From positions 1 through 30,502 of IMG/VR virus record IMGVR_UViG_3300028571_000081: a DNA stretch of 30,502 nt, one strand, 5' to 3'. The position numbers and the translations under genes are program-made. Source of the DNA: a virus. Positions 1-30,176 of this stretch are shown here, piece by piece. The notes under the pieces are model-generated. The model made no database searches. It saw only the letters and a list, made by a program, of their open reading frames with translations, and was not told the origin of the DNA. Position 1 is the first letter of the stretch, and every line of letters starts with the position of its first letter.

Positions 1-2356
1 CGTTGGCGGCGACTTGGTTGACCTGAATGACCGTCGTGCTGAAGATGTTGACGATGACGTGCTCGCCGTTGAACGAGTTGTCGGCGACTCCCTTGACCGT
101 GATTTTGCGTCCGACATGGGAGAGATTGGTGTAGCCGTGCGCCGTCGAAGTGGTGATGGCGACCACGTTGCCGGTGCGGGAGATACCCGCCAACGGGCGT
201 TCGACATCGTTGCCCGCGATGGTAATAGTGTCGGACCCGCCCAGCGTGATGGGGGCATCGGTCTTGATGGAGAGGTAGGCGCCGTTGTTCGCGTAGGGCG
301 ACGCGGTGCCGAAGTAGGGAAGGGCGACCAGCACGGTTTTGGTTGGATCGACCGAGGTCAGTCCGGATTGCACAACGTAGAACTGGGCATAGGCCGCTGT
401 CGCGGGCGCCGCGAAGCTGAACGAGACATAGGTCCAGTCGCTGCCGGCGGGCACCGACGCGGAGCCGATGCTGGCCACCAGCACGCCTGCCGAGTTCACA
501 TAGCGAGTCACGATCTGGCAGTTGTGCGTCGTGCCCTGGGTGTTAAGCCAAGCACCCTTCCGATAGGTCGTGCCGACCACCACCGGCATGGACCGCGCAA
601 CGTCCACGTAGCCCCAGTAGAGGCGCGGCGAGTTGGACTTCAGCGCCGTCCGCCAAGGCCGGTCCATGACCGTCGCCACCGCCGGGCGGATTTCCGTCGA
701 CGTGGAAGCTGCGTTGGATACGTTCCACCAGCCGAGCGGGGTCTGGTCTTCGAAGGTCGCGTCGGTGATCCAGTTCGTGCCCGGCGCGATGCACAGATCA
801 TCCATCGGCGCGATGCGCCCACCCAGGCGGGCACCGTCAATCGCGGGGTCGCGGATTTCGATGATCTGTCCGGGGCGGGCGAGGATATGGTCCAGCGAGG
901 CCGTGTAGTTGACCGCCTCGGTTTCCAACTGTTCGCTCAACAGCATCCACAGGCCGAGGCGGTAGGCTTGCGTCCGCGAGGTGCAGCCCATCGACGCTAC
1001 GTCAATCGGACGATAGCCGTAGCGGGCCAGTGCGGTCGGGTTCTCGACCACCTCGATCGCCGGACGGTAGAAGTCCCCGGGATCGTTCCACGTCACCAGG
1101 GCGGTGCTGTGCCGCTCCTTGAGTGCGGTCGACGAGTAGTTGAACGTGCCGCCTTTGACGTTGGCCGGTGCAACGAGTTGCACGGGTGCCTTCGGGCTAT
1201 CCTGCGTCGCATAGATGGTGCCGTTCGCCCAGTAGACCATGCCCCGGAACACGGAGGCGAGGTTCTGCAGGACGGTGTAGGCTTCTTCGCGGGTGCTGAG
1301 GATGCCGTTGAAGGTGAACCGTGCCTCGGTCCCGCCGCGCCCGTCCGAGACCAGTTCGTCGCAGTATCGGGCGATCTCGTAGAGCGCATACTTGTCGACC
1401 GACGACGCGGTGATGACGTCGCCGAGACCGTAGCGCGGGTTGGTCAGGAGATCGTAGAAAATCCAGGCGGGGTTGTCCGTCCACTGCTTGGTGCCAGAGA
1501 ACAGGCCGTTCCAATAGGTGCCACTGTATGCCCGGGTGGCAGGGGTGTAGTTCGACGGAACCGAGACCTTCAGCCCCTTCACCTTGTAGGCGCGGGACGG
1601 CAGGCTTTCACCGAAGCTCGACGTGTCGATGGTGATGCCGACCAGGGCCGAGTAGGGGTAGGTGAACTTGTCGTCGCGCAGGCCGACCACGCCGGACACC
1701 CGGGTCGTGCGGCTCTCGGAACTGTCGGTCGGGTCAGACGTCAGACGACGCACGCGCACATACCACGGGTTGGTCGCGCCGGCCGGCTTGTTCACCCGGT
1801 AGCCCCGCTGGTAGGGGCTCATCGTCTTGCCCTGGATGGTGTCGTTGTAGACCTGCACCCAGAGTGAACCATTGGTGCTGGTCTCGATGATCACGTCGAC
1901 GCTGCTGCCGTGCATGTCGCCGTTGGATTTGTCCTGCGCGAACAGAGCGTCGATCTGGTAGACGATCCGCACCGCGTCCACGGTCGTGTCGCTCACCGTG
2001 CCGATCCAGAAGGTAGTCGAGTTGCCGGCGATGTAGAACTTGACCTCACCGCCCGGGATCGACAGGCCGCTGTCCGCCGACACGCCCTGGATGAAGGTCT
2101 GCTGAGGCAGGCCGTTGCGGGTGTCGACGACGATGCCCGAGAAGTTGAAGCTGTTGTCTTCGTTCTGCAGCGGCGTCTCGTCGAGGTAGATGCCTTTCAT
2201 GCCCCCAACGATGCCCTCGATCTCCCCCTCTCCGATCAGGTCGACCACGTAGGCGATCGTCTTTGACCGCAGCGTGTTGGGGTCTTCCTGGGCCGACCGT
2301 TGGCCCTTCGGGGCCTTGCCACCGCCGCCGGCACCGTAGGGAGTGATGGCGTTCAT
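1..2356 (-). CDS. J: Lambda gpJ-like tail tip/central hub protein (3' end outside window)
   Basis: This encodes the host-contacting tail-tip protein, the last gene of the M-L-K-I-J set. The reading frame is open from the ATG at 2356 to the window edge, so only about the first 785 residues are present. The start overlaps the stop of the I-like gene (ATGA). The N-terminus (KTIAYVVDLIGEGEIEGIVG, then YLDETPLQNED) is typical of J hubs, as is the later LYEIARYCDELV and ARPGQIIEIRDP stretch. Around residues 525-690 there is an extra segment starting TNWITDATFED and containing aromatic-rich beta-strand sequence, resembling a carbohydrate-binding module. It is followed by a small TAHGYT...ITVKG module also seen in the tail-tube proteins. 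Receptor-binding sequence would lie in the missing C-terminus. The J assignment rests on sequence plus gene order; the CBM call is inference. Confidence 0.93.
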   Translation of the reverse strand, partial: MNAITPYGAGGGGKAPKGQRSAQEDPNTLRSKTIAYVVDLIGEGEIEGIVGGMKGIYLDETPLQNEDNSFNFSGIVVDTRNGLPQQTFIQGVSADSGLSIPGGEVKFYIAGNSTTFWIGTVSDTTVDAVRIVYQIDALFAQDKSNGDMHGSSVDVIIETSTNGSLWVQVYNDTIQGKTMSPYQRGYRVNKPAGATNPWYVRVRRLTSDPTDSSESRTTRVSGVVGLRDDKFTYPYSALVGITIDTSSFGESLPSRAYKVKGLKVSVPSNYTPATRAYSGTYWNGLFSGTKQWTDNPAWIFYDLLTNPRYGLGDVITASSVDKYALYEIARYCDELVSDGRGGTEARFTFNGILSTREEAYTVLQNLASVFRGMVYWANGTIYATQDSPKAPVQLVAPANVKGGTFNYSSTALKERHSTALVTWNDPGDFYRPAIEVVENPTALARYGYRPIDVASMGCTSRTQAYRLGLWMLLSEQLETEAVNYTASLDHILARPGQIIEIRDPAIDGARLGGRIAPMDDLCIAPGTNWITDATFEDQTPLGWWNVSNAASTSTEIRPAVATVMDRPWRTALKSNSPRLYWGYVDVARSMPVVVGTTYRKGAWLNTQGTTHNCQIVTRYVNSAGVLVASIGSASVPAGSDWTYVSFSFAAPATAAYAQFYVVQSGLTSVDPTKTVLVALPYFGTASPYANNGAYLSIKTDAPITLGGSDTITIAGNDVERPLAGISRTGNVVAITTSTAHGYTNLSHVGRKITVKGVADNSFNGEHVIVNIFSTTVIQVNQVAAN
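1168..1183. promoter_or_regulatory. Palindromic element GTGCAACGAGTTGCAC (within J)
   Basis: A perfect TGCAAC-GA-GTTGCA core inside the J coding sequence, over the VQLVA codons. CAA, GTT and GCA are used there instead of the GC-ending codons common in this gene. Confidence 0.6.
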
Positions 2357-3081
2357 GTCGTCGACCTCACCACGCCCCAGAAGTTCGACTCCTCGGGGTC
2401 GTCATTGCCGGCGACGTCGACGGGCATATCCTCGGGGTTGATCCCCATGGCGATGCTTTTGCTGCCGACGATCATGGTGCCGTAGATCAAGGGCACCGGG
2501 CCGCCCTGTTCGGACGTGTTGACCGGGCCGTTGTAGAGCGCCGAGTTGTCGTCGGCCTTCTCGCGGTTGTCGTAGTTGGTCTTCGGCTGGGGCGAGAGAA
2601 GCTGGGTGATACCACCGAGCGCCATCATCGCGCCGAGCATGGCGACGCCCTTGAACGACACGAGCCCGAAGGTCCCCGGGATCGCGGCCCCCATCATGGC
2701 GCCGAAGCCGGCACCGGGGGCGAGACCCAGGCCCGCCGCGCCGATGGCATACGGGGCGGCGATCGCGATGGCGATCAGCGCGATGCCCATGATGACCTTG
2801 CCACCACCGCCCCGGCCCGCGCCGGCCACCGCCGGGACGATGTGCAGGGTGCGCTCCTTGCGGCCCATGAAGGGCAGCTTGACCTCGTCCTCGCCCAGGC
2901 GCCGGCCGGTCTTGCGATCGCCGGCAATCACCCGCCACGTGCCGGATCGCAGGGCCTGCTCGAAGCCCGGGACCATGTGCAGCAGGGCGCGCACAGCCTC
3001 TCCCGGGGTCTGCGCGTCGATCTCGTAGTGGGGATCGAAGCCGTGCTTCAGGCGACCATGCAGGTGGATCGTGCGGAGCAT
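2353..3081 (-). CDS. I: Lambda gpI-like tail assembly protein
   Basis: The product is 242 residues. ATG at 3081 lies in a TAATG overlap with the K-like stop, and the gene's own stop overlaps the J start, so the three genes are translationally coupled. The N-terminal 90 residues (MLRTIHLHGRLKHGF, TPGEAVRALLHMVPGF) match the ubiquitin-like fold region of lambda gpI-type proteins. Two glycine/alanine-rich hydrophobic segments follow at about residues 95-165. The C-terminal part has the family-typical YNGPVNTSEQGGPVPLIYG and IVGSKSIAMGI stretch. In lambda gpI is needed for tail-tip assembly but is not found in the virion. The assignment rests on that C-terminal signature and on order; its exact role here is inference. 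Confidence 0.9.
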   Translation of the reverse strand: MLRTIHLHGRLKHGFDPHYEIDAQTPGEAVRALLHMVPGFEQALRSGTWRVIAGDRKTGRRLGEDEVKLPFMGRKERTLHIVPAVAGAGRGGGGKVIMGIALIAIAIAAPYAIGAAGLGLAPGAGFGAMMGAAIPGTFGLVSFKGVAMLGAMMALGGITQLLSPQPKTNYDNREKADDNSALYNGPVNTSEQGGPVPLIYGTMIVGSKSIAMGINPEDMPVDVAGNDDPEESNFWGVVRSTT

Positions 3082-3836
3082 TATCCCTCCTCGGGAACCT
3101 GAAGCGAGGCGTGTCGGACCCACAGAGCAACGTGCGACGCCCACGTATGTAGGGGCACGTGGTGCGATAGATACCCCTCCAGATGATGCAAGATCAAGCC
3201 ATCACCGGTGTAGATGCCGGCGTGGTTGAGCACCGGCGAACGCAGCTTCATCAGGAAGCAGTCTCCGGGCCGGATGTTGGCGAAGTCGCTCTCGGTTTCG
3301 ACCGGCGAGAAGCCCCAGTCGCGGTAGAAGGCGTAGAAATCCTGGCCCTTCTTGAACCAGTCCTGATCGCGGGGTTGGTCCGGCAGGATGATCCCGTGGG
3401 TTTGGCGGAAGTAGTCGCGCACCAGCGCGAAGCAGTCCGCCACGCCATGGACGAAAGGTCGGCCGAGGAGGGGCAGGGGCTCCAACTGGTCCCCGAACCA
3501 TGTCGGGTCGGAGCACCCTTCGGCGCTCGACTGCATCACCCCCCACGGCACGTTGCTGTCGATCTGGCTGCGCATGTCCGCCTCGCTCGGGACCGGATCG
3601 GTGCGCGGGTGCGAGTGCAGGATCGCCAGGATCGGCCCCTCTGCCAGCAGCCATTCCGCCGGCGCGATCGCGAAGTGGGTTTCCTTGTTCTCCGCGATAT
3701 TGGCGACGGGTTTGAAACCCGTTGCAAGAAGGAACCCCACACCCTCTTCCGGCCAGACGGAGGCGAAGTGCCTCTCGGCGTCGAGGATCATCTGGCCCGT
3801 GACGAACGGGGGTGCGCGAAATCCGATACCAGCCAT
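3081..3836 (-). CDS. K: Lambda gpK-like tail protein: JAMM/MPN peptidase plus NlpC/P60 domain
   Basis: The product is 251 residues, with ATG at 3836 overlapping the L stop (TGATG). Longer upstream readings overlap the L gene and are not needed. The N-terminal half carries a JAMM-type metal site: Glu31, then His74-Ser-His76-Pro and Asp87 in HSHPRTDPVPSEAD. The C-terminal half is an NlpC/P60 fold, with the likely nucleophile Cys135 in VADCFALVRDYF and the partner histidine in LNHAGIYTGDG. Such two-domain proteins act at the tail tip in assembly and in local peptidoglycan cleavage during DNA entry. All expected key residues are present, so both active sites look intact. Confidence is high from motifs plus order. 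Confidence 0.94.
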   Translation of the reverse strand: MAGIGFRAPPFVTGQMILDAERHFASVWPEEGVGFLLATGFKPVANIAENKETHFAIAPAEWLLAEGPILAILHSHPRTDPVPSEADMRSQIDSNVPWGVMQSSAEGCSDPTWFGDQLEPLPLLGRPFVHGVADCFALVRDYFRQTHGIILPDQPRDQDWFKKGQDFYAFYRDWGFSPVETESDFANIRPGDCFLMKLRSPVLNHAGIYTGDGLILHHLEGYLSHHVPLHTWASHVALWVRHASLQVPEEG

Positions 3837-4926: not shown

Positions 4927-7900
4927 CAAACCCTCCGGTCAGCGGCGCGGCTGAACAACCCACCGGGTCGCATGTTCCGCTCGGCGAACGCGTTCATCTT
5001 CATCTCCAGCGCCGCGTCGAGTTCGCGGCTCATGGTCTTCGCCAACGCCGCCTGCGCGTCGGCATCGCCGCCGGCCGCACCGCCCTCGATGTTGATGACC
5101 ACGCTCGGGGCGAACACCGCCTGTCCTCCGCCGCCCATGCCGCCGAGGGCGCCCGGGAGCCGCACGGCGTTGCCTCCTCCTGTCCCCAAAGCGGCTACCG
5201 GCGAGCCCCCGACAACGCCGCCGGTGTGGAAGCGTTGGGCACGGCTGAAGACCCCCATTTCCCGGGCCTGGAAGGCACCCCCAGCCGCCTGGGCGCGAAG
5301 GGCAGGGGACATAGCCCCACGAGCCTCTACGGCCGCCCTGCGCCCATCCAGGCCCAACGTGCCGTCCTTCAGGCGCTTGAGGGGGACCATCACCTCCTGG
5401 CCGCGCATCATCATCATGCGCACGCCGCGCTCGCCACGCTCGACGACGGTCGGGAGAACCGCTTCGTTCTTCAGGGCGATGATGGGGACCTCGTTTGGCT
5501 TCAGGCCGGGGACACCACGACGGTTGTCGTTGGCAGCACGGGCCTGCTTGGCGGCACCGACGATGCCCCCCGTGTGGTAACGGGCCGCGCCTGCGAACAC
5601 CGCGTTCGGCACCGTGCGTCGAGCGCCCGAGCCGTCCCCCGCCATGCCGCCGGTATGTCGGACAACAGCGGCACCGACGCCAATCGGCGGCACGGTGGTC
5701 GCGCCACCTCCACCGCCCGGAAGCAGTCCCATCACCCCCTGCACCGCGTTGAGTATCAACTGCGTGGAGATGATCTTCATCAGGTTGGCGATGACGGAGA
5801 GCGCGAAGTCCTTGAACGCGAACTTGCCCGTCTTAGCGAAGCCGACGATGGCGTCGCTCATCGTCGTCGCCATTTCGGTAACACCCTGCTTGGCGATCGA
5901 TAAGCTGTCCTGTGCATTGAGGATGAATTCGTCGATGCCTTCCTTCATGCCGGCCGCGAAAGTGCGTTTCTCGTTCAGAACCGCTTGCGCGGTGCGGACC
6001 TTGGTGACCAGTTCGTCGAGCTTGGCGAGGTCCTGCGGCGATACGATGCCGCCTGGACTGTTCTTCTGGAGGTCGTAATACGCTTCGGCGTAGAACTTCG
6101 CCCGGTCAAACTCCTGCCCCACCTTGCCGACCAATGCGGCCTGGATGGTCAGTTCGCGCACCGTGCTTTCGGCTTCTCCGGCGGCCTGATTGCGGGTGGT
6201 ATTCAGGGCCTTGGTCCGGGCGATCTCCTGCTCGGCCGGCAAGATACCATCACGGATGAGTGCGAGGTCCTTTTCGGTGTAGCCAAGGCCCGAGGCACGA
6301 AGCTCGTTGATCGTGACGATCGTCGCCTTGTGCGCCTCGTATTCCGTGCCGGTGAGGTAGGCGATGTTCTGCTCGGTCTGGGTTTCCTTTACGCTCTGTC
6401 GCACCTGCTCCAGTTTCTGACTGGTGAGGTCGATGCGCTCCTTCTCGAACCTGATCTTGGCCAGTTCGTTCGCCTGGGTGATGACGCCGGGGTCATCCAT
6501 CTTCGTGCCGGCGGCGCCCGCGATTTCGCGGCGCAGTTCGATGACCCGGCGCAGCGAAGCCCGCATGTCGATCGGGGCGGAAGCCAGTTCGCGGAAGGCG
6601 GCAAGCTCGGCCTTGGCTTCCATGAACAGCTTGGCGATGCCGTTGCCTGCCTTGGCGCTGCCTTCGGCCGCCAGGGCCGTCTGCAGGTCCTTCAGCATCG
6701 CGTCGACGTTCTTGCGCATCTCCTCGGCGCCGGCCGCGTCCAGCTTGGACAGGGCAGCGACCATCGCCAGGAGCGGGATAGCTGCCTGGAGATATTTGTT
6801 GCGCTGCTCGGCCGACAGGTTGGTCAGGCCCGAGGTCTCGCGTAGGATGCGCTCGCTGGTGATCGCATCCGCCGCCGCCTGCCCGGCCTTCTGCGTCGCC
6901 GTGGCGATGCCCTGCTTCAGAAGGAGGGTCTTCTGCAGGGTCGCGGCTTGGTCGATCGCCGGGTTGGCGGCGTCCGCGATCTGGGTTCGACCGGTTTCGT
7001 CGGGCAGGTAAAGGTTCTTTTCCTTGGCCTTGGCCTGCCGGAACTCCATGACCGCTTGCTCGATGGCGGCCACGTCGGACGACACGGCAGTCAGGCGAGC
7101 GGCACCCGTGGACGCATTGCGCACCTTGAACATCTCGGCGAAGGCCCGGTTGGACGCCTCGACCGCCTGGGTCTGCTCGATGATCTTCTGGGTCTCTTGT
7201 TCGGTCGCCAGGGCGAAGCCGGACGCGGACCCGCGCAGGCGGGCGAGCACGGCTTCGTAGCCGCCCATCGCCTCGACCGCCCGCAGGACCGCCGGGTTCT
7301 GGCTCTCGATCGCCGCGTTCAACGTCGCCTCGGCATCGGCCAACTGCTTGGCGTAGGCGATCGCGGGGGCCAGCCCTTCGGCCATCTGCATGAAGTTGCC
7401 GGCGGCGTCCGCGTTCACCTTGACGTTCGCCGTGTTCCGCAGCACGGCCAGCGTCTTCTCGTATGTCGACAGTATCCCGGCCGCCTCGGCGCCGTCCTTG
7501 TCGGATAGCGCCGACATCAGGGCGCGGATCGGCGCGGCCTGCTTCTCGAATTCGAGCAGCTTCTGTTTCGCCACCGCCGTCATGCCGACCGTGCGCAGTT
7601 CGAGCCCCGCCTGATTGACCGTCTCGGCCGACGCCTCATTGCCCTTTGCAACGAGTTGCACGATCCGGTCGCGGATCAACTGGATTTCCCGCAGGCGGCC
7701 GACGCGCTGGACGTCGGCGTCGTTCATGTCAGGCATGGCCTGCCCGGTGCGGTCAAGCGCCGGGTTCTGCATGTCGTCGAGCAGGAACTTGTTGTTCTTC
7801 GTCGCATACGACCGCGAGAACACCTCGACGTCCTTGGCGATGGCCGCCATGTCGGTCGACAGGAACCCGGCGCCGCCGGCCTGATCGCGGGCCGCGAACA

Positions 7901-11827: not shown

Positions 11828-11843
11828 TTGCAACGGGTTGCAA
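11828..11843. promoter_or_regulatory. Palindromic element TTGCAACGGGTTGCAA
   Basis: An intergenic copy of the dispersed palindrome (core TGCAAC-NN-GTTGCA, centre GG). It lies 3 bases after the TAG stop of the 62-residue gene and just before the AGGAGGT of the chaperone gene. Confidence 0.7.
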
Positions 11844-12045: not shown

Positions 12046-13233
12046 TCACGGGAAGAAGAGGGTGATTTCGTCGTTCCCGCTGGTGCTGCGGCGAAGCCCG
12101 AGCGAGATGTCGTAGGCCCGGATGTTGTCGCGGTCGGTGTAGGAGATGCCGGTGACCTGGGCAGCGGGCAGCACGAAGTTCACCTCGTTGCCGAGCGTCG
12201 CCCCGAACTCCGCAGAGATCGAGCGGACGGTGGACGCCTCCCAGTCGGCGAAGAAACGCGCACTCAGCGCCGCGTCCACCTCGGGCGTGAAGTTGCCGGT
12301 CGGAGTGCGGCCCGAGATGTAGACCGAGTGCATCCCCAGCACCGAGTTCATGTCTTTACGCACCGCGATCTGGTTGCCCATGTCGATGCTCATCGACGCG
12401 GAATACAGGGTGGTGAACCCCGCCGTGTGGGGATAGGCGAGGTCGACGCTGCCGACGATCGGCGGGATGGTGCTCTGCAGCGTCTGCGCCGGAATGGCAG
12501 CGAGCGAGGGCGTATTGTAGGTGCCCGTGAAGGTCCATTCGATGCTGGCAATGCCGCCCGCCTCGGCGGTCAGCGTCCACGTGCCCATGGTGCCTGTCAG
12601 CGTGTGCAGGATGCCGTCCCAGTAGAGCCGCATGGTCAGCGTGTCCATGTTGTCGGTCTGGGGGGCGTAGAGCGCGCCTGCCATCAGCGTTGCCGTGCCG
12701 CCGCCACCCGTGGCACTGCCAACGCCGGGGTTCGAAACGGTGAACGTGGTGGATGTCGGGACCGTCAGCACCATGAAGGAGCCGTTGAAGCCGGCAGTGG
12801 CTCCTGCCACCGTGACCCACTGGCCCACCAGAAGCCCGTGTGCGCCGGATGTGGTGAAGGTGCTGGTCATGCCAGACCCGGCCCGCACGGCACCGGCCGG
12901 CGCTGCTGTGATGGTCGCCGGGGTGCCGATTGACTGCGCAGTGGCGGAGAACCCGCACCCGCGCAGCAGGACCGCCCAGTCGGGGGCGATAGCCGCCGTG
13001 CCCGACCCGCGAAGCTCGGTCTTGAAGGACAAGGTGGCGCGACGCGCCGTGTAGACGCTGGGGTGCGTGGACATGTCCCCACGCGTGAACGCGCGGATGA
13101 TCTCCTCCGCTTCGATGGACCACATCGGCTCGGATACGAGGATCGCGTCAGTGGCCCCCGACGTCGAGATGGCCGTTCCCGACGTCGTCTCGACCTTGGC
13201 GAGCAGGGCAGCTTTCTGGGTAAGGATCGGCAT
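12046..13233 (-). CDS. Major tail (tube) protein, copy 2
   Basis: The product is 395 residues with a strong GGAGGT before ATG at 13233. It is clearly paralogous to the upstream gene: the first 25 residues are identical apart from isolated changes, and RRATL.FKTE.RGSGTA, PDWAVLLRGCGF, YISGRTPTG.F.PEV and the C-terminal RDNIR.YD/NDE.TL.FP blocks are shared. A variable module at about residues 115-180 (SGAHGLLVGQWVTVAGA..FNGSFMV) interrupts the conserved frame. The position just after the tail-terminator gene and before the chaperones fits a tail-tube subunit. Whether both copies build the tube, or one forms an initiator or terminal ring, cannot be told from sequence. Confidence 0.8.
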   Translation of the reverse strand: MPILTQKAALLAKVETTSGTAISTSGATDAILVSEPMWSIEAEEIIRAFTRGDMSTHPSVYTARRATLSFKTELRGSGTAAIAPDWAVLLRGCGFSATAQSIGTPATITAAPAGAVRAGSGMTSTFTTSGAHGLLVGQWVTVAGATAGFNGSFMVLTVPTSTTFTVSNPGVGSATGGGGTATLMAGALYAPQTDNMDTLTMRLYWDGILHTLTGTMGTWTLTAEAGGIASIEWTFTGTYNTPSLAAIPAQTLQSTIPPIVGSVDLAYPHTAGFTTLYSASMSIDMGNQIAVRKDMNSVLGMHSVYISGRTPTGNFTPEVDAALSARFFADWEASTVRSISAEFGATLGNEVNFVLPAAQVTGISYTDRDNIRAYDISLGLRRSTSGNDEITLFFP

Positions 13234-16238: not shown

Positions 16239-16242
16239 CAGG

Positions 16243-16258
16243 GTGCAACGCGTTGCAC
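16243..16258. promoter_or_regulatory. Palindromic element GTGCAACGCGTTGCAC
   Basis: A perfect 16-bp copy of the dispersed palindrome (centre GC). It lies 2 bases after the TAA stop of the 103-residue gene and 4 bases before the connector ATG, occupying the ribosome-binding position. Confidence 0.7.
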
Positions 16259-16260
16259 GG

Positions 16261-18353: not shown

Positions 18354-18902
18354 TTATCGCTGCGCCGACTTCAGCGGGGTCCGAAGGCCGAGCATGCCGG
18401 ACGTCCGAAGGGATGCGATGTGGTCGCTGTCCTTGGTCGTCTTCTGCCCGGGTGCCGTGCCCGTCGCTTCGTCCGCGTCTGCGCCCTTCCGGGTCTGCCG
18501 CACCTCTTCGATGGCGGATACCCGCTGCGCCAGCTTCTCTTCGTTGGCGGCAGCTTCGGATCGCATGGTTGCCACAGTTGTGGCCAGCACGTCAACAGTT
18601 GACGTCAACTTGCCGACGAGAGCGAACACATCGGTCATCGTCGGGTCGGCTGCCTTGCCGGTGCCCTCGCCCTGGCCGGCGGGCTGGGTGTCGTTGCCGT
18701 TCTCGACCGGCGGGGCAGGGGCATCGGTGACGGGAGCCGACGGAGCGCCCGGCTGGGGCTCGCCGCCCTCGGCGCCTTCGGTGCCTTCGGTGCCTTCCGC
18801 CTTGGCGGCGGGAGTCGTGGCGTCGGCGGCGGGAGCGGTGTCGGACTTCACGGCCGGGGCGCCATCGGCGCCTGCAGCCGACGCAGCGGCCTTCGTGGTC
18901 AT
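18354..18902 (-). CDS. Nested scaffolding-type protein (internal start, 182 aa)
   Basis: Within the larger gene and in the same frame, ATG at 18902 is preceded by CCAGGAGACCACCAAC, a good AGGAG nine bases upstream. The product would be the low-complexity acidic segment plus coiled coil, directly upstream of the capsid gene. This is the arrangement of lambda Nu3 inside C. The internal ribosome binding site is visible; expression is inference. Confidence 0.4.
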   Translation of the reverse strand: MTTKAAASAAGADGAPAVKSDTAPAADATTPAAKAEGTEGTEGAEGGEPQPGAPSAPVTDAPAPPVENGNDTQPAGQGEGTGKAADPTMTDVFALVGKLTSTVDVLATTVATMRSEAAANEEKLAQRVSAIEEVRQTRKGADADEATGTAPGQKTTKDSDHIASLRTSGMLGLRTPLKSAQR

Positions 18903-19697
18903 GTTGGTGGTCTCCTGGAGAGTGGCGGGGGCGAGGTCGGGGGCGAATGCCTTGATCACCAGGGCCATCGCGTCGGTGTCGGTGGCGGACTTCTGCGCCG
19001 GGAGGGGGAACATCTCTGCCATCCTGGCGACGAGATCACCCCATTCCGCGCCCACAGCGCGCATGCCGGCGAAGTCTCGATCCAGGGCGCAGTTACGCAT
19101 GGCGGCGTAGGCCACCTCGGTCACCTCGTAGAGGCCCGGGGGCAGCCCGTCGTTGCACCACGCCAGCAGGCCATCCATCGTCTTGATGTCCTGATCGGCA
19201 TACTTCGCATACCACGAGTCGAACTTCACGCGCATCTCGGCGCCGGCAGGGCTCGGTTCCGCGTCCTTCCGTGCAACCGGTTGCACGGAGACGATGTTGG
19301 ACGGGGCGCTCTCGACGGGGGACTCGACCGTCTTGGTGGTCTCGGCGGCGCGGGGTGCCACGAAGATGGACAGGCCGTCCATCTTGACTTCGCGCAGATC
19401 GTCGCCGTCGTAGGTGCCGGCGACCGTGAAGCCCTCGTCGGACTTGATGATGGTGTAGCCCTCGTAGCCGCCGTCATCGAGCCACGCCTTGACGGCGGCC
19501 TCGTCGGCGAACTTCTCCGACCGGAAGGCGATCTTGGCGACGTCGTGGCTGTCGGCCTTCGCCGCCACGGTCTTGGCGGACTTCACCGCCAGGAACGGAG
19601 TCATGTTGGCGCCGGTCTGGACCAGGGAGACGAACTGCGGGTGCGGGTCCGTCAGCGCCTTGGCGGTGGCCGTCACGATCTTGGCTTTACGCTGCAT
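18354..19697 (-). CDS. Large head protein with C-terminal scaffold-like domain
   Basis: The product is 447 residues, ATG at 19697, lying between protease and capsid. Residues 1-110 form a globular region (LTDPHPQFVSLVQTGANMTPF, then DEAAVKAWLDDGGYEGYTIIKSDEGFTVAGTY). Residues about 150-245 form a second helical domain (KFDSWYAKYADQDIKTMDGLLAW). From residue 266 the sequence is acidic, Ala/Pro/Glu/Gly-rich and ends in a coiled coil (SEAAANEEKLAQRVSAIEEVRQ). The last part looks like a scaffolding protein and can start internally at 18902. A perfect palindrome (19271-19286) lies in the linker at about residues 137-142. The N-terminal function is unknown. Confidence 0.7.
   Translation of the reverse strand: MQRKAKIVTATAKALTDPHPQFVSLVQTGANMTPFLAVKSAKTVAAKADSHDVAKIAFRSEKFADEAAVKAWLDDGGYEGYTIIKSDEGFTVAGTYDGDDLREVKMDGLSIFVAPRAAETTKTVESPVESAPSNIVSVQPVARKDAEPSPAGAEMRVKFDSWYAKYADQDIKTMDGLLAWCNDGLPPGLYEVTEVAYAAMRNCALDRDFAGMRAVGAEWGDLVARMAEMFPLPAQKSATDTDAMALVIKAFAPDLAPATLQETTNMTTKAAASAAGADGAPAVKSDTAPAADATTPAAKAEGTEGTEGAEGGEPQPGAPSAPVTDAPAPPVENGNDTQPAGQGEGTGKAADPTMTDVFALVGKLTSTVDVLATTVATMRSEAAANEEKLAQRVSAIEEVRQTRKGADADEATGTAPGQKTTKDSDHIASLRTSGMLGLRTPLKSAQR
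19271..19286. promoter_or_regulatory. Palindromic element GTGCAACCGGTTGCAC (within head protein)
   Basis: A perfect 16-bp palindrome (centre CG) over VQPVA codons in the long head protein. The sequence is of the style bound by LacI-type repressors. Confidence 0.6.
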
Positions 19698-19709: not shown

Positions 19710-20342
19710 TCAGAGGAAGAAACGGTGGGAGTGCCCCGCCGTGATGTCGGTGATCGACGCCTTGGTGATGATGTGCGAGTGGCCGTCGACCTCATCAGTC
19801 TTACCGCCGACCACCTGCCCGTCTTCGCCGACCTGCACGAAATAGACATGCGTGTGGTCGGTATCGAGCCCCATGGCGGTCGACCCCACGTGGTCTCGAA
19901 TGACCTCGTATTCGATCTCCATGTCGACCGGGCGCACCAGCGACTGGAAAGAGAACGCGTTCAGTTTGCCATCCAGCACGTCTGGCCACCGTTCGTCGGA
20001 CACCTTCACGCCCATCACCCATGCTCCAGGCGTATAGTCGGGGTCGCCGTCGCGGGCGATGAAGGTCTCGACCGGGAAGGAGCCGTTGGGTTCGTTGTCG
20101 TGCTGAGTGTCGATCGCCTTGGTGACGTCGAGGCGCATGAAACGATGCGCCATCATCTCGATGTCGTCGGCCAACATGAACTCGCCCCAGGTGTCCAGCA
20201 CGTTGGGCGCGTAGACCTCGCCGTAGACGATCTGCTTGGCCTTGTTGATACGCTTGATAGCGACGCGAATTTGCGCCTTGCTGCCTTCCGTCTTGGCGGC
20301 AGCGTGGGCGTCTCCGGGCGAAACAGGTGCGGTCTTCGGCAT
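19710..20342 (-). CDS. XkdF-like prohead protease
   Basis: The product is 210 residues from ATG at 20342, preceded by GAGGACATTC. The XkdF-like pattern is clear: VYGEVYAPNVLDTWGEFM, DIEMMAHRFM, a conserved histidine at about 81 in AIDTQHDN, VETFIARDGD, PGAWVMGVKV, and the serine region at about 131 (NAFSFQSLV) where family members usually have G-x-S. These residues would form a serine-type active site for scaffold removal, by family knowledge. The C-terminus holds two histidine-rich strands (DGHSHII and AGHSHRFFL). It lies between portal and scaffold, as expected. Confidence 0.88.
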   Translation of the reverse strand: MPKTAPVSPGDAHAAAKTEGSKAQIRVAIKRINKAKQIVYGEVYAPNVLDTWGEFMLADDIEMMAHRFMRLDVTKAIDTQHDNEPNGSFPVETFIARDGDPDYTPGAWVMGVKVSDERWPDVLDGKLNAFSFQSLVRPVDMEIEYEVIRDHVGSTAMGLDTDHTHVYFVQVGEDGQVVGGKTDEVDGHSHIITKASITDITAGHSHRFFL

Positions 20343-20377
20343 GAATGTCCTCGTCGGCGGCACTCTGGTCAAAACAT

Positions 20378-20394: not shown

Positions 20395-20410
20395 GTGCAA
20401 CGCGTTGCAC
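20395..20410. promoter_or_regulatory. Palindromic element GTGCAACGCGTTGCAC
   Basis: A perfect 16-bp copy (centre GC), 11 bases after the portal stop and upstream of the protease gene, adjoining the 14-bp TTGACA repeat. Confidence 0.7.
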
Positions 20411-20421: not shown

Positions 20422-22221
20422 TCAAAAATCGGCGGTCTGTGTCTCGCGCACGTCTTCGAGCAGCTTGCGCAGGGTCGCCACACCTATCGACGCCTCGTTC
20501 ATCAGGGCCTGCCCACGTGCTCGCTTCGGGCGGGCAGGGGCGGCGCCGTTTCCACTGCCCTCGCCATTACCCACGCCGCTGGGTCGCCCACCCGCATCGT
20601 TCGGATTGCCGCCGGGGTCGTCGGACGTGTCGACCGGGGGCAGGAACAGCTTGCCCAGTTCGCCCATTTTTTCCGGGTCCAACTGTCCAGTCTGGGCCAA
20701 GGTCTGCACTAGGGCGAACGGATAGTCGCCCCAGAACTCGCCCACCGGGGTGATCTCCAGATCGAAGAACTCGTTGGCCATCTGGATGGCGACGTTGGGG
20801 GTCAGCGCGCCGACGCGCTCGAACACATTCACGGCACGGATGATGTCCTCGCGCGCGGCGAGGCGCGGCGGCATGGAGCGGAACTGCCAGAACACGGGGT
20901 TGTAGGTGGACAGCACCAAACGGTTGATCATGTCGTCGAACAGCTTGCGCTCGGGCCGGAATACCTGACCCTCGGCGATCTCGTAGCTCGTGCGCGCGGT
21001 GGCGAAGGTGTAGTCGGTGCTCTTGCCGAGGAAGATCGGCGGCAGACGAAACGACGACCTGATCTTCTCCTCGTTGGCATTCTCGTAGTTGGCGAACAGG
21101 GCATCTCCCTGGCGATCGCCCTGCAGCGGCTTCAGTTCGACACGGGGCACCGGGATCGCGCCACTTTCGGAGGCGGTCGACACGTCGCCGCCGACCTCGA
21201 CGATCGCCACCCGGTTCATCGACTTGCGGCCCCTCGCATTGCGGAAGCTGTTCTCGATCGCGGTGATCGACTCCTCGGTGACCAGTCCGCCCGAGACCAG
21301 CAGGACCATGGCCGGGATCGCGTTCTCCTTGAAGAAGTCGAGGTTGGTCAACTCCGCCTGCCGGCCGCCCATGATCGCGGGCAACTGGTTGAACCAGCGC
21401 GGCACGCCGTAGGGCAGGCCGGGGGTGTAGCGCGAGTAGAAGATGACCTCGGTGGCGCTGTCTTCCAGCGACAGGCTGTTGTTGACCAGCCCCGTGTTGG
21501 GGTCGATGGTTCGCGGATCACCGAACTCCTTGAAGAACACCTTGCGGTTGCCGATCATCTGCACGAAGCGGCAGAACCGCTTGTCGACCGTGACGCTCTC
21601 CTGCTCGCCACGGGGCAGGGTCATCGTGACCCGGGTGGTCTGGGTGTCTCGCGCCGTGCGGCGCATCGTGTGCGCTGGCAGATGGTTGAGACCTACGATC
21701 TGCTTCTTCTTGTCGCGCGGCGTCTCCATGGTGAAGAAGCCAAGCGTCTCGTAGTCGCGCCGCAGCCGGTTGCGCAACTCGCCGAAGGTGTAGTCTTCGT
21801 TGGGGTAGTCGAGAAGCTGGGCGAGCTTCGCCTTTTCCTTCCTGGCCGAGGGGGTCGTTTCTTTGCCTTCGGGGCCGACGTAGTAGAGCATATGGCCGTG
21901 CCCATCGACGTTGGTGGCCATGGCGTCGATGCACTGGGCCAGGATCGAGTTTTCCTGCGGCAACCGCATCAGGGCGTAGAGGTTGTAGGCCGGCTCGATG
22001 ATGTTCAGCGCCCCGCCGAGGCCACCGCCGGTGTAGAGGTCCTTGAACGGATCATCGAGACCCTTGCTCTCGTGGTATTCCTTCAGCACCGCGACAAGTG
22101 GATTTGCCTCCGCCTTCGCAGCCCCCATATCGCGGATCGAGGAACTGCGAGTCGCCGAGCGGAGGGAGTGCGCGCCATGGACGGGAGAGGGCGCGGCAGC
22201 GGGCTTACGAACGGCGGCCAT
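20422..22221 (-). CDS. Portal protein
   Basis: The product is 599 residues, ATG at 22221 with AAGGG upstream. The portal-family signature runs through the centre: IIEPAYNLYALMRLPQENSIL, YGVPRWFNQLPAIMGGRQAELTNLDFFKENAIPAMVLLVSGG, and RLPPIFLGKSTDYTFATARTSYEIAEGQVF. The last blocks (PPIFLG, ATARTS.E.A) are characteristic of PBSX-type portals. The last about 90 residues are a low-complexity tail (DDPGGNPNDAGGRPSGVGNG) plus a helix (LATLRKLLEDVRE pattern). It forms the twelve-subunit ring through which DNA enters and leaves the head. No terminase lies upstream, which is unusual for this module. Confidence 0.94.
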   Translation of the reverse strand: MAAVRKPAAAPSPVHGAHSLRSATRSSSIRDMGAAKAEANPLVAVLKEYHESKGLDDPFKDLYTGGGLGGALNIIEPAYNLYALMRLPQENSILAQCIDAMATNVDGHGHMLYYVGPEGKETTPSARKEKAKLAQLLDYPNEDYTFGELRNRLRRDYETLGFFTMETPRDKKKQIVGLNHLPAHTMRRTARDTQTTRVTMTLPRGEQESVTVDKRFCRFVQMIGNRKVFFKEFGDPRTIDPNTGLVNNSLSLEDSATEVIFYSRYTPGLPYGVPRWFNQLPAIMGGRQAELTNLDFFKENAIPAMVLLVSGGLVTEESITAIENSFRNARGRKSMNRVAIVEVGGDVSTASESGAIPVPRVELKPLQGDRQGDALFANYENANEEKIRSSFRLPPIFLGKSTDYTFATARTSYEIAEGQVFRPERKLFDDMINRLVLSTYNPVFWQFRSMPPRLAAREDIIRAVNVFERVGALTPNVAIQMANEFFDLEITPVGEFWGDYPFALVQTLAQTGQLDPEKMGELGKLFLPPVDTSDDPGGNPNDAGGRPSGVGNGEGSGNGAAPARPKRARGQALMNEASIGVATLRKLLEDVRETQTADF

Positions 22222-22281: not shown

Positions 22282-22297
22282 TTGCAACGCGTTGCAC
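22282..22297. promoter_or_regulatory. Palindromic element TTGCAACGCGTTGCAC
   Basis: A perfect TGCAAC-GC-GTTGCA core just upstream of the TTGACA of the portal promoter candidate, between the 150-residue gene and the portal gene. Confidence 0.7.
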
Positions 22298-22884: not shown

Positions 22885-22917
22885 CGTCAATCGTGCGGCA
22901 GACCGTAGATTTTTGGG

Positions 22918-23364: not shown

Positions 23365-23564
23365 TACCGACGACCGCGTCCGTAGCCATAGCCGCGCCCG
23401 ACGCCGCCGGCACGGTTCATCCGGTTCTGGTATTCCAGGCCGCGCCCGAGCGGGCCGACCGCGAAATGGTCATACCCTGGCGTTCCCGGCGCTGACCCGT
23501 TCGCCCCACATCCGGACATCAGAAGAAGTGCAATGACGGCTACACTTGTCAGTATGGTCTTCAT
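23364..23564 (-). CDS. Small lipoprotein (Rz1-like candidate)
   Basis: The product is 66 residues, ATG at 23564 with AAAGGGA upstream. A lysine, then a hydrophobic segment (ILTSVAVIALLLMSGC), and Cys19 form a signal peptidase II lipobox; the -3 residue is Met rather than the usual Leu. The mature part is Gly/Arg-rich with a YGYGRGRR tail and no folded domain. Placement immediately before, and coupled to, the lysin suggests an outer-membrane spanin component. It lacks a typical proline-rich Rz1 body, and no inner-membrane partner is evident, so this is inference. A virion-exclusion lipoprotein is an alternative. Confidence 0.6.
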   Translation of the reverse strand: MKTILTSVAVIALLLMSGCGANGSAPGTPGYDHFAVGPLGRGLEYQNRMNRAGGVGRGYGYGRGRR

Positions 23565-23622
23565 GGTTTTCCCTTTTTACTTTGATCTTGACGAACGCGA
23601 CCGAAAATGTGCCAATGTGCAC
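23565..23622. promoter_or_regulatory. Divergent control region between lipoprotein and HTH genes
   Basis: Only 58 bases separate two divergent starts. They contain TTGACG on the plus strand (23588-23593), two direct repeats AATGTGC (23606-23612, 23614-23620) and a 10-bp perfect palindrome ATGTGCACAT that runs into the plus-strand start codon (23615-23624). This looks like an operator placed for autoregulation by the HTH protein. The -10 boxes are poor on both strands, so promoter positions are uncertain. Confidence 0.4.
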
Positions 23623-24075
23623 ATGCCCTCCATAGATATTGACTCTATCGTTGCCAAACTCGCCTTCACCTCCGTCACCCCGGACGGTAGTCGACGGCCA
23701 GTGCTCCTGAAAGCTGTGCTCGATGCCGGCCTGCGGGCCATGCGTCCCGGCCAGGAGCCGGGGCAGGGGGGCCGGAACCTTCTGGTCCAACTGGTCGAGG
23801 CTACCTCCAAACTGGCGGAGGCTCAATCCGCCACGGAATTGTCGGCACTTCGCCGCCGGACAGAGGAACTGGAGAAGCGGGTCGCCTCTACTGCGTCCGA
23901 ATTTACACCCGACGAGATCGCCTACATCCGCGTTTGCCACGAATACGGCATGAGCCTGCGCCAACTCGCGGAATTCTACGAAGTCGACGTCCGCCGTATC
24001 GCAGTGGCGTGTGGCAAGAAAATGGTTGGTCGACCGCCGGGCAAGAAGAACCGCCGCCAGCTACAGCTTGGCTAG
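23623..24075 (+). CDS. HTH-type DNA-binding protein, the only plus-strand gene
   Basis: The product is 150 residues from ATG at 23623. An earlier ATG at 23533 would overlap the lipoprotein start and add a hydrophobic, non-coding-like stretch. The N-terminal half is helical (PVLLKAVLDAGLRAM), followed by a coiled coil (LVQLVEATSKLAEAQSATELSALRRRTEELEKRV). A homeodomain-like helix-turn-helix lies at about 98-135 (DEIAYIRVCHEYGMSLRQLAEFYEVDVRRI), and a basic VGRPPGKKNRRQ tail resembles an AT-hook. No Shine-Dalgarno sequence precedes the start. The gene ends convergent with, and overlapping by 15 bases, the minus-strand gene. It is likely a regulator; a small-terminase role is less likely given strand and domain order. 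Confidence 0.65.
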   Translation: MPSIDIDSIVAKLAFTSVTPDGSRRPVLLKAVLDAGLRAMRPGQEPGQGGRNLLVQLVEATSKLAEAQSATELSALRRRTEELEKRVASTASEFTPDEIAYIRVCHEYGMSLRQLAEFYEVDVRRIAVACGKKMVGRPPGKKNRRQLQLG

Positions 24076-24735: not shown

Positions 24736-24739
24736 GGTG

Positions 24740-24960: not shown

Positions 24961-24991
24961 GGAAAAGGCCCGGGGTGATCAGTCCCGGGCC
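24961..24991 (-). terminator. Rho-independent terminator
   Basis: On the minus strand GGCCCGGG and CCCGGGCC form an 8-bp stem followed by TTTTCC. It lies 35 bases after the coiled-coil gene stop and directly before the next promoter, so it separates the tail-fibre block from the small-gene block. Confidence 0.75.
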
Positions 24992-25004
24992 TCCCTTCAC
25001 GTCG

Positions 25005-25020
25005 GTGCAACCAGTTTCAC
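25005..25020. promoter_or_regulatory. Imperfect palindromic element GTGCAACCAGTTTCAC
   Basis: One mismatch from the TGCAAC-NN-GTTGCA core. It lies 5 bases after the stop of the coiled-coil gene, the same placement as the perfect intergenic copies, which is why it is listed. Confidence 0.45.
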
Positions 25021-25025
25021 TCGGG

Positions 25026-25484: not shown

Positions 25485-25527
25485 GTGCTGCTCCTGTTTG
25501 CGTGGCAAATATGTAGCCGAAAGATCG

Positions 25528-26874
25528 CTAGACTGCAAGAGCAGTTTGTTCGCCTTCGGACACTGTGTCGCCGAAAATCCAGCGGCGTTCCTGGCGCAAT
25601 GGCGCTGTGATGTAGTAGGGCACCGCCCCGGTCAAGAATTCGATCGCGGCGGCGAAGAAGACGATGTTGTCACTGAAGGCATTATCGCAAGCGGCGTCCC
25701 ACAACTTGCCTTCGAGGAACATGCATGAGCCCTGGCACAACTGCAGCACAGGGCAGGCCGCGCACTCCTTGCGCGTCGACCAATGCCGGGCGGTGTCCAG
25801 TTTCACTCCTGCGAGATCGGCCACTGTCCCGATCTTGTGCGACTTGCCATTGGGGGCCTTGCCGGCAGGAGACGTGTTCTGGCAGGTGATGACGTCGCCT
25901 CGCAAGGTCACCGCGATGTTGGTGGGTCGGTCCATCCCGCACTTCTGCCACACTGCCTCACCGGGGCGGCGGTAGGTGAGCGTGTTGACGAACGCACCGA
26001 TTTTCATGCTGGCGATCTCAAAGCGGTCCGCCCTGCCCTCCCTAAGCTCCCTGAAGGCTGTCTGACGGAAGGCGAGATGGTCAGCCCGCTTGAGGCTATA
26101 GGCCATCCCACCCTCGTCGTAGGGGTCTATGAAACCACCCTCGCCGAGCACCACTTCGTCGCCGAAGCGGGCCTGGAACCACGTCTGGATCGCCGCACGG
26201 GACGGATTAGTGCGATGGAGCATTGGGTTGATCGTGATGCGTCCGGACGGCTTCAGGCGGGCGTAGAGGTCGTAGATGCTCCGGGCCTTTTCTGCATCGT
26301 CGAACGGGTCCGGTCCACGCACTTTTTGTCCCGGCCCGTCATGGGACAGCCCAATCTGGAACCCCATCCGGTCGATCCAGGAATTCTTTTCCTCGTCGAG
26401 CAGAGAGCCGTTGGTGACCATCAGGAAAGAGGCGTTTGGCATGCGCTCCCGCAGCGCCTCGGCCAGCGGTTTGAGCGTCTTCCAGTAGACCAAGGGCTCG
26501 CCACCCCAGAACTCGATCTTGAGCCCCCTGCCCCGCCCATCTGTCCCTCGGGTGTCGAACCACGAGTCCAGGCCGGTCAGAAACGGCTCGATGTCGCGGT
26601 GCGCCGTCTCAGCCGCGTGGGGAACAAACCGCTGGCTGCAGTAGGTGCAGGAGTAGTTGCAGGACAGGCCGAGGCTGATCTTCAGCGTGGTCACCGTCTC
26701 TTTGCGGCCGGGCGCCTCGGGTGAAACGATCGTGGCCGCCGGCCAGTTGCGCTCTACAGGCGCCACGACTCTTTCGCCGGTCTCCCGCCACCGCAGATCG
26801 CTGGTCAGGTTGTTGTAAGTCAGACCGACCATCTCGCCGTTCTGGCGTCGCGCCAGGATCGTGAAAACCGCCAC
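25528..26874 (-). CDS. Radical SAM/SPASM enzyme (putative protein maturase)
   Basis: The product is 448 residues from GTG 26874, which follows the upstream stop after 1 base; a GTG 11 codons earlier is the other option. The radical SAM cluster motif is C72-NYS-C76-TY-C79, followed by the GGEP-type motif FWGGEPLVYW and the SAM-binding strand FLMVTNG. The C-terminal third is a SPASM domain: Cys312, then G-x4-Cys331 (RGDVITC), then C371-x2-C374-x5-C380-x3-C384-x11-C396, enough to bind two auxiliary Fe-S clusters. SPASM enzymes modify peptides or proteins (sulfatase activation, thioether or C-C crosslinks). All cluster cysteines are present, so it should be active. Its position among tail-fibre genes suggests a virion protein as substrate, which is inference. 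Confidence 0.93.
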   Translation of the reverse strand: MAVFTILARRQNGEMVGLTYNNLTSDLRWRETGERVVAPVERNWPAATIVSPEAPGRKETVTTLKISLGLSCNYSCTYCSQRFVPHAAETAHRDIEPFLTGLDSWFDTRGTDGRGRGLKIEFWGGEPLVYWKTLKPLAEALRERMPNASFLMVTNGSLLDEEKNSWIDRMGFQIGLSHDGPGQKVRGPDPFDDAEKARSIYDLYARLKPSGRITINPMLHRTNPSRAAIQTWFQARFGDEVVLGEGGFIDPYDEGGMAYSLKRADHLAFRQTAFRELREGRADRFEIASMKIGAFVNTLTYRRPGEAVWQKCGMDRPTNIAVTLRGDVITCQNTSPAGKAPNGKSHKIGTVADLAGVKLDTARHWSTRKECAACPVLQLCQGSCMFLEGKLWDAACDNAFSDNIVFFAAAIEFLTGAVPYYITAPLRQERRWIFGDTVSEGEQTALAV

Positions 26875-26875
26875 G

Positions 26876-27745
26876 TCAGTCCACCCGGATGCTGATCTCG
26901 TCCGCACCTGGGTAATAGCGCCAGCCTGCCTTCACCCGCAGTTCTTCGCCCGGCAGCAGGCCCATCGCCGAGACGCGGAACGTGCCCTGCCCTTCCTTCA
27001 GCCTCGCCCGTGTGTGCGGCAGGTAGCCGGAGACGGCTTCGAGGTAGATCGTTGAATTGCAACGCGTGTCAATCTGCTGGGTGATATTGTCGAAGACCCG
27101 CATGGTGACCTCCGTCGATCCGTCCGCCGCGATTTCGGTCGGCCCAGACAGACTCAGGATCGGCCACCGGTAGATTTCGCTCGCGATCCCCTTCTCTCGT
27201 AGCCCCGCCTTGAATGGGTGGTGCACTCCCTGCGCGCGATTGCCGGAGACCACGATTGTCGCGTCGGCGAACGGGCTGTCGGCGTAGGGCATGCAGACGA
27301 TCAGAGGGGTGTTGACCCTGTCGCGGCGGTAGATAAGGCCGGCGGCCTCTCGTCCGGGGAGAGACTGCAGCGTGCGGTTGAACGGAGTGCGCAGGGCGCC
27401 ACTGGGTTCCGCCGGGAACATCCACATGCCACGGTCAGACATTTCGGCGCCATGACGGCGGGGGTCCGGCTCCCACGCCAGAGCGGAGACAACCTTGATG
27501 CGCCCATGCTCCGCGCCGGGGTATACCGACTTCGCGTCGTAAGACAGGCCACCGAAGATGATCATGTCCCCTCCCAGGTAATCGCCTACCCACGAGAGAA
27601 GCGCGCTGGTTTCGCTCTCACTGGCTTCTCGCAGCGCGTCGCTCGCCGTCACTGGCGCGGTGGTGCGCAAGCTGATCCTGTTTTCGTCCAGGGCGACGAT
27701 GACCCCGTGCGACAGGGCCGTGTTGTGTAGCTCGAAGGTGCGCAT
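26876..27745 (-). CDS. Putative tail/adhesin protein with Ig-like C-terminus (289 aa)
   Basis: ATG at 27745 has AGGAG upstream. Residues 1-190 are unrecognised, with strand-rich sequence (FELHNTALSHGVIVALDENRISLRTT, MIIFGGLSYDAKSVYPG). Residues about 195-289 resemble a bacterial Ig-like domain: ILSLSGPTEIAADGSTEVTMRVFD, IDTRCNSTIYLEAVSGYLP, LKEGQGTFRVSAMGLLPGEELRVKA. The stop sits 1 base before the radical SAM start, so the two are tightly coupled and the pair may function together. It contains Cys in NTPLIVCMPY and DTRCNS. It may be the enzyme's substrate or partner; no direct proof. Confidence 0.55.
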   Translation of the reverse strand: MRTFELHNTALSHGVIVALDENRISLRTTAPVTASDALREASESETSALLSWVGDYLGGDMIIFGGLSYDAKSVYPGAEHGRIKVVSALAWEPDPRRHGAEMSDRGMWMFPAEPSGALRTPFNRTLQSLPGREAAGLIYRRDRVNTPLIVCMPYADSPFADATIVVSGNRAQGVHHPFKAGLREKGIASEIYRWPILSLSGPTEIAADGSTEVTMRVFDNITQQIDTRCNSTIYLEAVSGYLPHTRARLKEGQGTFRVSAMGLLPGEELRVKAGWRYYPGADEISIRVD

Positions 27746-27754
27746 GAAGTGCTC

Positions 27755-28549: not shown

Positions 28550-28552
28550 GGG

Positions 28553-29607: not shown

Positions 29608-29618
29608 CCGTCGTGTTC

Positions 29619-30149: not shown

Positions 30150-30160
30150 ACCCTACCCCC

Positions 30161-30176
30161 GTGCAACGGGTTGCAC
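30161..30176. promoter_or_regulatory. Palindromic element GTGCAACGGGTTGCAC
   Basis: A perfect 16-bp copy (centre GG) lying 1 base after the TAA stop of the fibre gene and just before the ribosome binding site of the next gene. Confidence 0.7.

Follow-up and report, generated by a model that had tools for sequence, protein, structure and literature searches.

Dispersed TGCA-N6-TGCA palindromes in a group of large siphophages, with phrog_17202 as their candidate ParB/ParT-like binding protein

Why does a short perfect palindrome recur all over a stretch of phage DNA, and which protein might read it? The question is raised by the IMG/VR virus record IMGVR_UViG_3300028571_000081, a stretch of 30,502 bp (called the window below, always at its full length), which is probably a fragment of a phage genome; the whole genome of its phage was not found. 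The minus strand of the window carries portal, protease, capsid and tail genes, and the palindrome TGCAACNNGTTGCA, with arms TGCAAC and GTTGCA around two central bases, occurs in it in eight exact copies, against none in 100 dinucleotide shuffles. In this study, we propose, with a probability of about one half, that such palindromes are the loading sites of a phage-encoded, dimeric and sequence-specific protein, the family phrog_17202, which from sequence and structure predictions would be a ParB/ParT-like protein lacking the cytidine triphosphatase (CTPase) domain.

A dyad of fixed spacing in the window and its relatives

A sequence-only reading of the window had listed the eight copies, and our rescan bore out all their coordinates and central bases, together with the assignment of five copies to intergenic DNA. 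These five are the TGCAACGGGTTGCA copies at 11829..11842 and 30162..30175 and the TGCAACGCGTTGCA copies at 16244..16257, 20396..20409 and 22283..22296, which lie 4 bp (11829), 3 bp (16244), 12 bp (20396), 32 bp (22283) and 2 bp (30162) past the upstream stop codon, the intergenic status of site 16244 depending on an inner ATG as the start of open reading frame (ORF) 15546-16316. The three remaining copies are coding: TGCAACGAGTTGCA at 1169..1182, within the tail-tip ORF 2-2356 (minus strand), and at 7647..7660, within the tape measure gene, and TGCAACCGGTTGCA at 19272..19285, within ORF 18354-19697 (minus strand), between the protease and capsid genes. Neither hexamer is enriched by itself (TGCAAC 12 against 9.9 expected, GTTGCA 11 against 9.0 expected), and when 6-mer palindromes with central gaps of 0-39 were surveyed the pair of them came top with 8 copies, the best unrelated pair having 3; the enriched unit is therefore the dyad. 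A mismatch scan of the window added two degenerate places with one mismatch, at 3713..3726 (coding) and 25006..25019, and four with two, where 1.09 matches with up to two mismatches are expected by chance. The homologue in Rhizobium phage L338C of the gene around site 3713 likewise holds a site, by eye at a different residue.

Relatives were found by DNA and portal-protein searches, the portal gene at 20422..22221 (minus strand) serving as query, and 14 named genomes were taken, all of them 79-110 kb siphophages of Rhizobium, Agrobacterium, Rhodobacter, Pseudomonas, Stenotrophomonas, Aeromonas and Vibrio. The more general form TGCA-N6-TGCA is enriched genome-wide in all 14, from 8 sites in SIO-2 (80 kb read) to 48 in L338C, against 0.3-2.3 expected. 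L338C (109,558 bp) holds 47 exact 14-bp copies and 12 copies of a 13-bp form with a single central base; ten of these 12, which read TGCAAC[AT]GTTGCA, lie inside genes, as compared with 15 of the 47 copies of the 14-bp form. The same dyad in some form was the top palindrome in six of seven phages surveyed (the whole of L338C and the first 50 kb of six others), the seventh being RcZahn, where it had only 2 copies in the first 50 kb, level with other pairs. The interiors of the sites are lineage-specific: AC-NN-GT is commonest in the window, L338C and RHph_I4, ACC[AG]GT in HJ05, ATCAAT in DLP5, ATCAAC and ATCAAT in RcZahn, ATCGAT in RcDurkin, AAC[AG]TT in JP1, A[AG]CGCT in FBPa45, ACATAT and ACAAAT in TM16 and Y1_11, and ATTAAT in PG28. 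Conserved arms around a free centre, taken earlier as the mark of a dimeric DNA-binding protein, thus find support from the sequences and are phage-wide in the relatives. The repression network suggested by the sequence-only reading across the structural genes finds no support in that form; the set of sites is not limited to these genes, since L338C carries sites over its whole 109.6 kb.

Could the sites be passive repeats, or an artefact of base composition? We regard this as hardly credible, and no supporting point was found. A spacer of exactly 6 far exceeds other spacers in 11 of 11 records including the window, and also in KarBoss, PG28, SIO-2 and DLP3, with a further excess of spacer 5 in L338C and RHph_I4 and slight excesses of other spacers in RcZahn and RcDurkin; the reversed-pattern control gave 0 in 13 of the 14 relatives and 1 in PG28; the flanks of the 47 L338C sites show little conservation; and a position before the protease gene, described below, is kept between phages whose portal proteins are only ~29-49% identical. 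The element is also rare in the bacterial DNA that was scanned, a point on which the sequence-only reading had wanted a check, although the comparison was drawn from one bacterial family, the Burkholderiaceae, which is not known as host of the window's phage. Among 31 genomes of this family (~122 Mb, a sum of rounded sizes) TGCAACNNGTTGCA occurs 18 times, as against 8 times in the 30.5 kb of the window. In a Burkholderiaceae bin of 4.8 Mb that includes one contig of such a phage, all 12 copies of TGCAATNNATTGCA sit on the phage contig, which also carries one of the 18 copies of TGCAACNNGTTGCA.

Spacing, promoters and gene boundaries

Spacing was compared with random positions in the window and in the relatives other than KarBoss and SIO-2. 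Sites are more evenly spaced than random positions in L338C, RHph_I4, DLP5, DLP3, FBPa45 and JP1 (P 0.0002 or less), and weakly so in RcZahn, TM16 and Y1_11 (P 0.01-0.04). The tiling of L338C has a coefficient of variation of 0.53 against 1.08 by chance, and with the intergenic share held fixed its largest gap is 4443 bp (chance mean 9368) and only one gap is shorter than 400 bp (14.6 expected). The L338C annotation comprises 181 coding sequences at 90% coding, and 34 of its 59 sites are intergenic (32 of 47 of the 14-bp form, 2 of 12 of the 13-bp form) where 8.5% is expected. Stretches longer than 3.6 kb between intergenic sites nearly all hold coding sites, the exception being one of 4.4 kb. 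The gaps of the window run from 1.1 to 5.2 kb once its two one-mismatch sites are counted.

For promoters of the type TTG[ACT]CAAAGG, a site ends 7-12 bp before the -35 box in 15 of 28 cases in L338C and 14 of 26 in RHph_I4, and in PG28 the centres of 11 sites fall 51-60 bp ahead of predicted starts, where 0.35 would be expected; a cruder promoter scan of other phages gave a strong peak in PG28 only and 1-4 sites in several. The sites are also conserved in position. In the window, site 20396 lies between the portal gene and the head maturation protease gene (19710..20372, minus strand), upstream of the latter, and 11 of the 14 relatives likewise have a site before the protease gene, so that the check on positional conservation proposed by the sequence-only reading came out in its favour; of the remaining relatives, SIO-2 has a one-mismatch form there, and FBPa45 and HJ05 have none within the stretch read. 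Among 23 ORF families common to at least 10 relatives, a few of which are antisense shadows, sites within 250 bp upstream are found for the protease in 11 of 14 and for phrog_17202 in 10 of 13, where about 1 is expected for each, the remaining families having 0-3. Three window sites match L338C sites by gene boundary or neighbour: 11829, whose gene boundary equals that of L338C site 22166, 20396, and 22283, which like L338C site 9827 follows a homologous gene. Window site 20396 stands 4 bp before a minus-strand TTGACA box and site 22283, upstream of the portal gene, 2 bp before another, and a TTGACATGTAGACG stretch that follows both sites on the minus strand is a likely common promoter element.

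Such placement could also reflect transcription control pure and simple, in which phrog_17202 or another protein would act at many promoters as a silencer, in the manner of stoperators or of the phiC31 conserved inverted repeats (CIRs), or as an activator, with no organisation of the genome. We consider this possible, but only as a secondary candidate. It would be consistent with the sites before the -35 boxes of L338C and RHph_I4, with the PG28 sites, and with the promoter-like boxes that stand, by eye, beside the pre-protease site in several relatives, but about half of the L338C and RHph_I4 promoters of that type have no site, and many of the L338C sites within genes (15 of the 14-bp form and 10 of the 13-bp form) fill stretches between intergenic ones. 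In addition, no single activator or operator geometry fits the pre-protease site: judged by eye, the likely promoter follows the site in L338C, RHph_I4 and the window, and in DLP5, DLP3, JP1, PG28 and KarBoss a -10-like box precedes it.

phrog_17202 as the candidate binding protein

Which protein might bind these sites? phrog_17202, a family with no assigned function and no convincing Pfam match, is present in single copy in all 14 relatives and absent from all 14 control genomes. Its gene (59795-61150 in L338C) is preceded by a site at a distance of 9-196 bp in 11 of the 14 relatives; the window itself does not hold the gene. When the analysis was started from the protein, 74 loci fetched by homology (1.2 Mb) contained 285 TGCA-N6-TGCA against 18.2 expected, other gaps from 0 to 12 giving 9-40 each, with 42 of the 74 loci singly enriched, and after reduction to 59 loci the count was 237 against 15.5 expected. 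A class-matched site lies within 300 bp upstream of phrog_17202 in 25 of 50 testable loci (4.9 expected) and, in the reduced set, in 19 of 37 (3.6 expected). In some phrog_17202 loci that have no TGCA pairs the top palindrome is instead TGAAATNNATTTCA, which precedes the gene by 66-104 bp in 7 of 9 loci, or 2 of 4 after reduction. Dyads of other spacing were noted at two loci, L275 and L281, namely TGCAA-N5-TTGCA (spacer 7 between the TGCAs) and TTGCA-N5-TGCAA (spacer 5).

When the analysis was started from the DNA, 85 records behind at least 119 site-bearing stretches were examined, other short records being left out. Among these, 11 of the 14 records of at least 80 kb hold phrog_17202, three of the 11 having also contributed sequences to the search profile, and one of 71 shorter records matches it, weakly. 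In nine of the 11, a count over the full record gave 15-52 sites.

A model of the L338C protein core, built on an alignment of 51 sequences, reached a predicted local distance difference test score (pLDDT) of 92.3 and a predicted template modelling score (pTM) of 0.75. This core may resemble the DNA-binding domains of ParB, Noc and KorB, its VIA Z scores of 9.6 to Spo0J-parS (4umk), 9.3 to ParB (6t1f), 9.1 to Noc-NBS (6y93) and 6.4 to KorB (1r71) lying within the chance range for helical folds. The ParB, Spo0J and Noc entries score 8.4-9.6 and, KorB included, align over about 98-114 residues, and entries that belong neither to these groups nor to Raf1 score below 5. Sequence profiles (E up to 1) gave no match to the ParB_N CTPase domain in the whole DLP5, L338C and RcZahn members and part of the JP1 member; a further scan covered 51 members as cores lacking the N-terminal part. 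The C-terminal 51 residues are predicted as an extended stretch and two helices (pLDDT 90.6), a topology that may fit the strand-helix-helix fold of ribbon-helix-helix proteins, with 6kyt_C (a MazEF complex) and 5zkt_A as the best VIA entries at a Z of only 3.2. In the viral library, DUF3102 and ParB-like proteins were among the matches, all with weak E-values, and no convincing relative came out of the comparison with the sequences of solved structures, where the best E-values were 0.06 and, for a designed protein, 0.0049. By eye, the N-terminal parts vary: Ala/Lys-rich tails occur, some members have a small beta-type domain, and RcZahn and TM16 show a SAP-like stretch.

Two ideas on how the sites would be read were rejected. 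A ribbon-helix-helix that reads each TGCA was discarded, the C-terminal strand being identical in TGCA and TGAA lineages, thus base recognition is more likely to reside in the core, with the C-terminal segment as a possible dimeriser. An exchange of GWAK for GWTK or GWSK as specificity switch holds in a single clade only.

Several observations weigh against phrog_17202 as the binder. An equally wide co-occurrence with the sites would be expected of every core gene in this group of phages; SIO-2, TM16 and Y1_11 have no site upstream of the gene; and 21 of the 59 reduced loci, many of them short or distant, have no recognised motif. In the phrog_17202 records G086 and G104, samples of 20 kb held no more than 1 and 2 sites (their first stretches hold 1 and 3 further sites), and conversely G012 (82 kb, locus L076) has 46 sites and no phrog_17202 match, so that it may be an incomplete record or have a different binder; a probe of G012 with the neighbouring exonuclease, which had no positive control, was also negative. 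The other records of at least 80 kb that have no phrog_17202 are G054, with 5 sites, and G115, with 4 in one 4.6-kb stretch and none in the 20 kb sampled. Spacing is no more even than chance in HJ05, RcDurkin, PG28 (10 strict sites) and the window. As to the fold, the Rubisco factor Raf1 scores as high as the ParB group (VIA Z 7.8-10.2), where VIA warns that for a mostly helical model a Z under about 13 may reflect a common arrangement only, and it is first in Foldseek, whose best E-values are 0.1-0.5, with ParB-parS and Spo0J-parS also among the top; P1 ParB and VirB reach only Z 3.3-4.4; and no fold match of the C-terminal segment is significant. Finally, no residue change follows the TGCA-to-TGAA switch across all lineages.

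Might a different protein bind the sites, either one of the phage, such as the MerR-like phrog_19880 encoded between the helicase and RecA genes, or one of the host? This seems rather unlikely. phrog_19880 is a predicted DNA-binding regulator present in 9 of the 14 relatives, and RcDurkin has an unmatched ORF at its place, thus diverged copies may be missed; G012, too, would fit such a binder. However, five relatives with 15-46 sites, JP1, RcDurkin, RcZahn, RHph_I4 and Y1_11, yielded no phrog_19880 match and all hold phrog_17202, and with 9 of 14 relatives we rejected phrog_19880 as universal binder. A host protein is difficult to reconcile with hosts that span alpha- and gammaproteobacteria while the site interiors differ between phages. 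The sequence-only reading had pointed to a helix-turn-helix protein at 23623. The corresponding ORF (23533-24075) was rejected as binder: it matches nothing in Pfam at E 0.01, and the ORFs of the 14 relatives include no relative of it at E<1e-3, whereas phrog_17202 occurs in all 14.

In L338C and DLP5 the phrog_17202 gene adjoins exonuclease, resolvase and RecA genes, and together with the even spacing in several relatives this would fit a mark for DNA handling (replication, recombination, packaging or self-recognition) that is read by an enzyme rather than by an architectural protein. We hold this to be very improbable, as such a mark leaves the promoter-proximal placement and the site before phrog_17202's own gene unexplained, and we know of no enzyme with a dispersed site of this kind.

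Some further observations concern other genes. Directly upstream of RecA, a small family with an NLGDYNS-type motif (L141 6107-6499 in L338C, and syntenic genes) is recognisable by eye in 12 of the 14 relatives. In the window, the minus-strand genes 12046-13233 and 13259-14431 are tandem copies with 73-79% DNA identity in blocks, both matching a single L338C gene, which makes them a duplicated tail gene, and a radical SAM protein (25528-26907; phrog_1802, with a Pfam score slightly under the cut-off) adjoins the phage structural genes.

Known systems and the meaning of tiled sites

KorB of plasmid RK2 and Noc have features in common with the phage system, namely a ParB-fold protein (a tentative prediction in the phage case) and dispersed palindromic sites, and KorB silences at a distance; both possess a CTP-binding domain, whereas the phrog_17202 members scanned have no ParB_N match. 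The phiC31 conserved inverted repeats are dispersed palindromes bound by a phage repressor, fewer in number and with a focus on early promoters. The palindrome of SrpA of phage K5, as given in the available part of its description, differs in sequence from the dyad found here. The stoperators of mycobacteriophages L5 and D29, with which the sequence-only reading had drawn an analogy, are similar in that, according to the accessible text of PMC5712189, there are about two dozen dispersed, mostly intergenic sites whose consensus differs among relatives; they are asymmetric, stand in one orientation to transcription, and lower it when bound by the phage repressor, while the sites described here are palindromic and also tiled into genes, so that in this respect the analogy is not supported. 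ParB of Pseudomonas aeruginosa also binds numerous sites scattered in the genome, but in the available part of PMC10419367 it is a chromosomal system with ParA whose scattered sites are heptanucleotide half sites (half-parS).

The nearest parallel may be ParT of the Streptomyces plasmid SCP2, described in the accessible part of PMC12260392 as a CTPase-less ParB-like protein that uses an 18-bp inverted repeat as its loading site and spreads in a nucleotide-free manner, a single site giving a chromatin immunoprecipitation (ChIP) peak about 5 kb wide. A ParB-like helix-turn-helix core, an inverted-repeat site and the lack of a CTPase would be common to both, the phage protein being known from models; no ParT entry occurred among the Foldseek or VIA entries, no search by ParT accession having been made. 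ParT has a separate C-terminal dimerisation domain, of which the C-terminal segment of phrog_17202, whose fold matches are weak, is a possible counterpart. The two systems differ in that, in the same source, ParT belongs to a plasmid system with ParA and a parS inside its own gene, as against dozens of sites in the phages.

Since the sites are tiled genome-wide at about 2-5 kb, phrog_17202 could cover or organise the whole phage DNA, and since the ParT peak is of the same order as this spacing, we propose loading at the tiled sites, spreading and self-regulation. The protein would consist of a ParB-like helical core with no recognised CTPase domain and a C-terminal segment that may dimerise, preceded in many members by a long Ala/Lys-rich N-terminal tail. 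One dimer would occupy one dyad, each subunit on one TGCA-type half, and coverage would probably arise in the way described for the CTP-independent ParT, through loading followed by spreading. The protein would putatively regulate itself through the site beside its own promoter and would also tune other promoters that abut sites. Compaction of the DNA is not assumed, because ParT does not condense DNA in the accessible part of PMC12260392. A bolder version, which we find doubtful, is a sequence-addressed phage chromatin, in which a CTP-independent ParB-fold clamp on tiled parS-like sites would coat the whole 80-110 kb genome, with a spacing matched to the spreading range and with the lineage-specific site alleles serving as a self-recognition code.

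As to earlier descriptions, a term search of the available text of the DLP3 paper found no palindrom-, intergenic or promoter, and motif once, in a reference title, and that of the Rhodobacter phage paper found none for motif or inverted; no paper on L338C or Agrobacterium phage JP1 was present in the CC-licensed full-text literature, and among 20 of 62 matches there the hexamer TGCAAC stood in one paper, on a Vibrio CRISPR-transposon. The motif may still have been published. If the proposed assignment is true, it would account for promoter-adjacent palindromes that the searched terms did not reveal in the available text of the DLP3 and Rhodobacter phage papers, and it would give a role to phrog_17202, a single-copy family of unassigned function in all 14 of these large siphophages. 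It would also mean that phages can bear genome-wide tiled parS-like sites with no recognised CTPase, a natural ParB-type loading and spreading system in which sites number in the dozens and protein and site allele come in many natural pairs, and where the determinants of spreading range and specificity would be directly testable.

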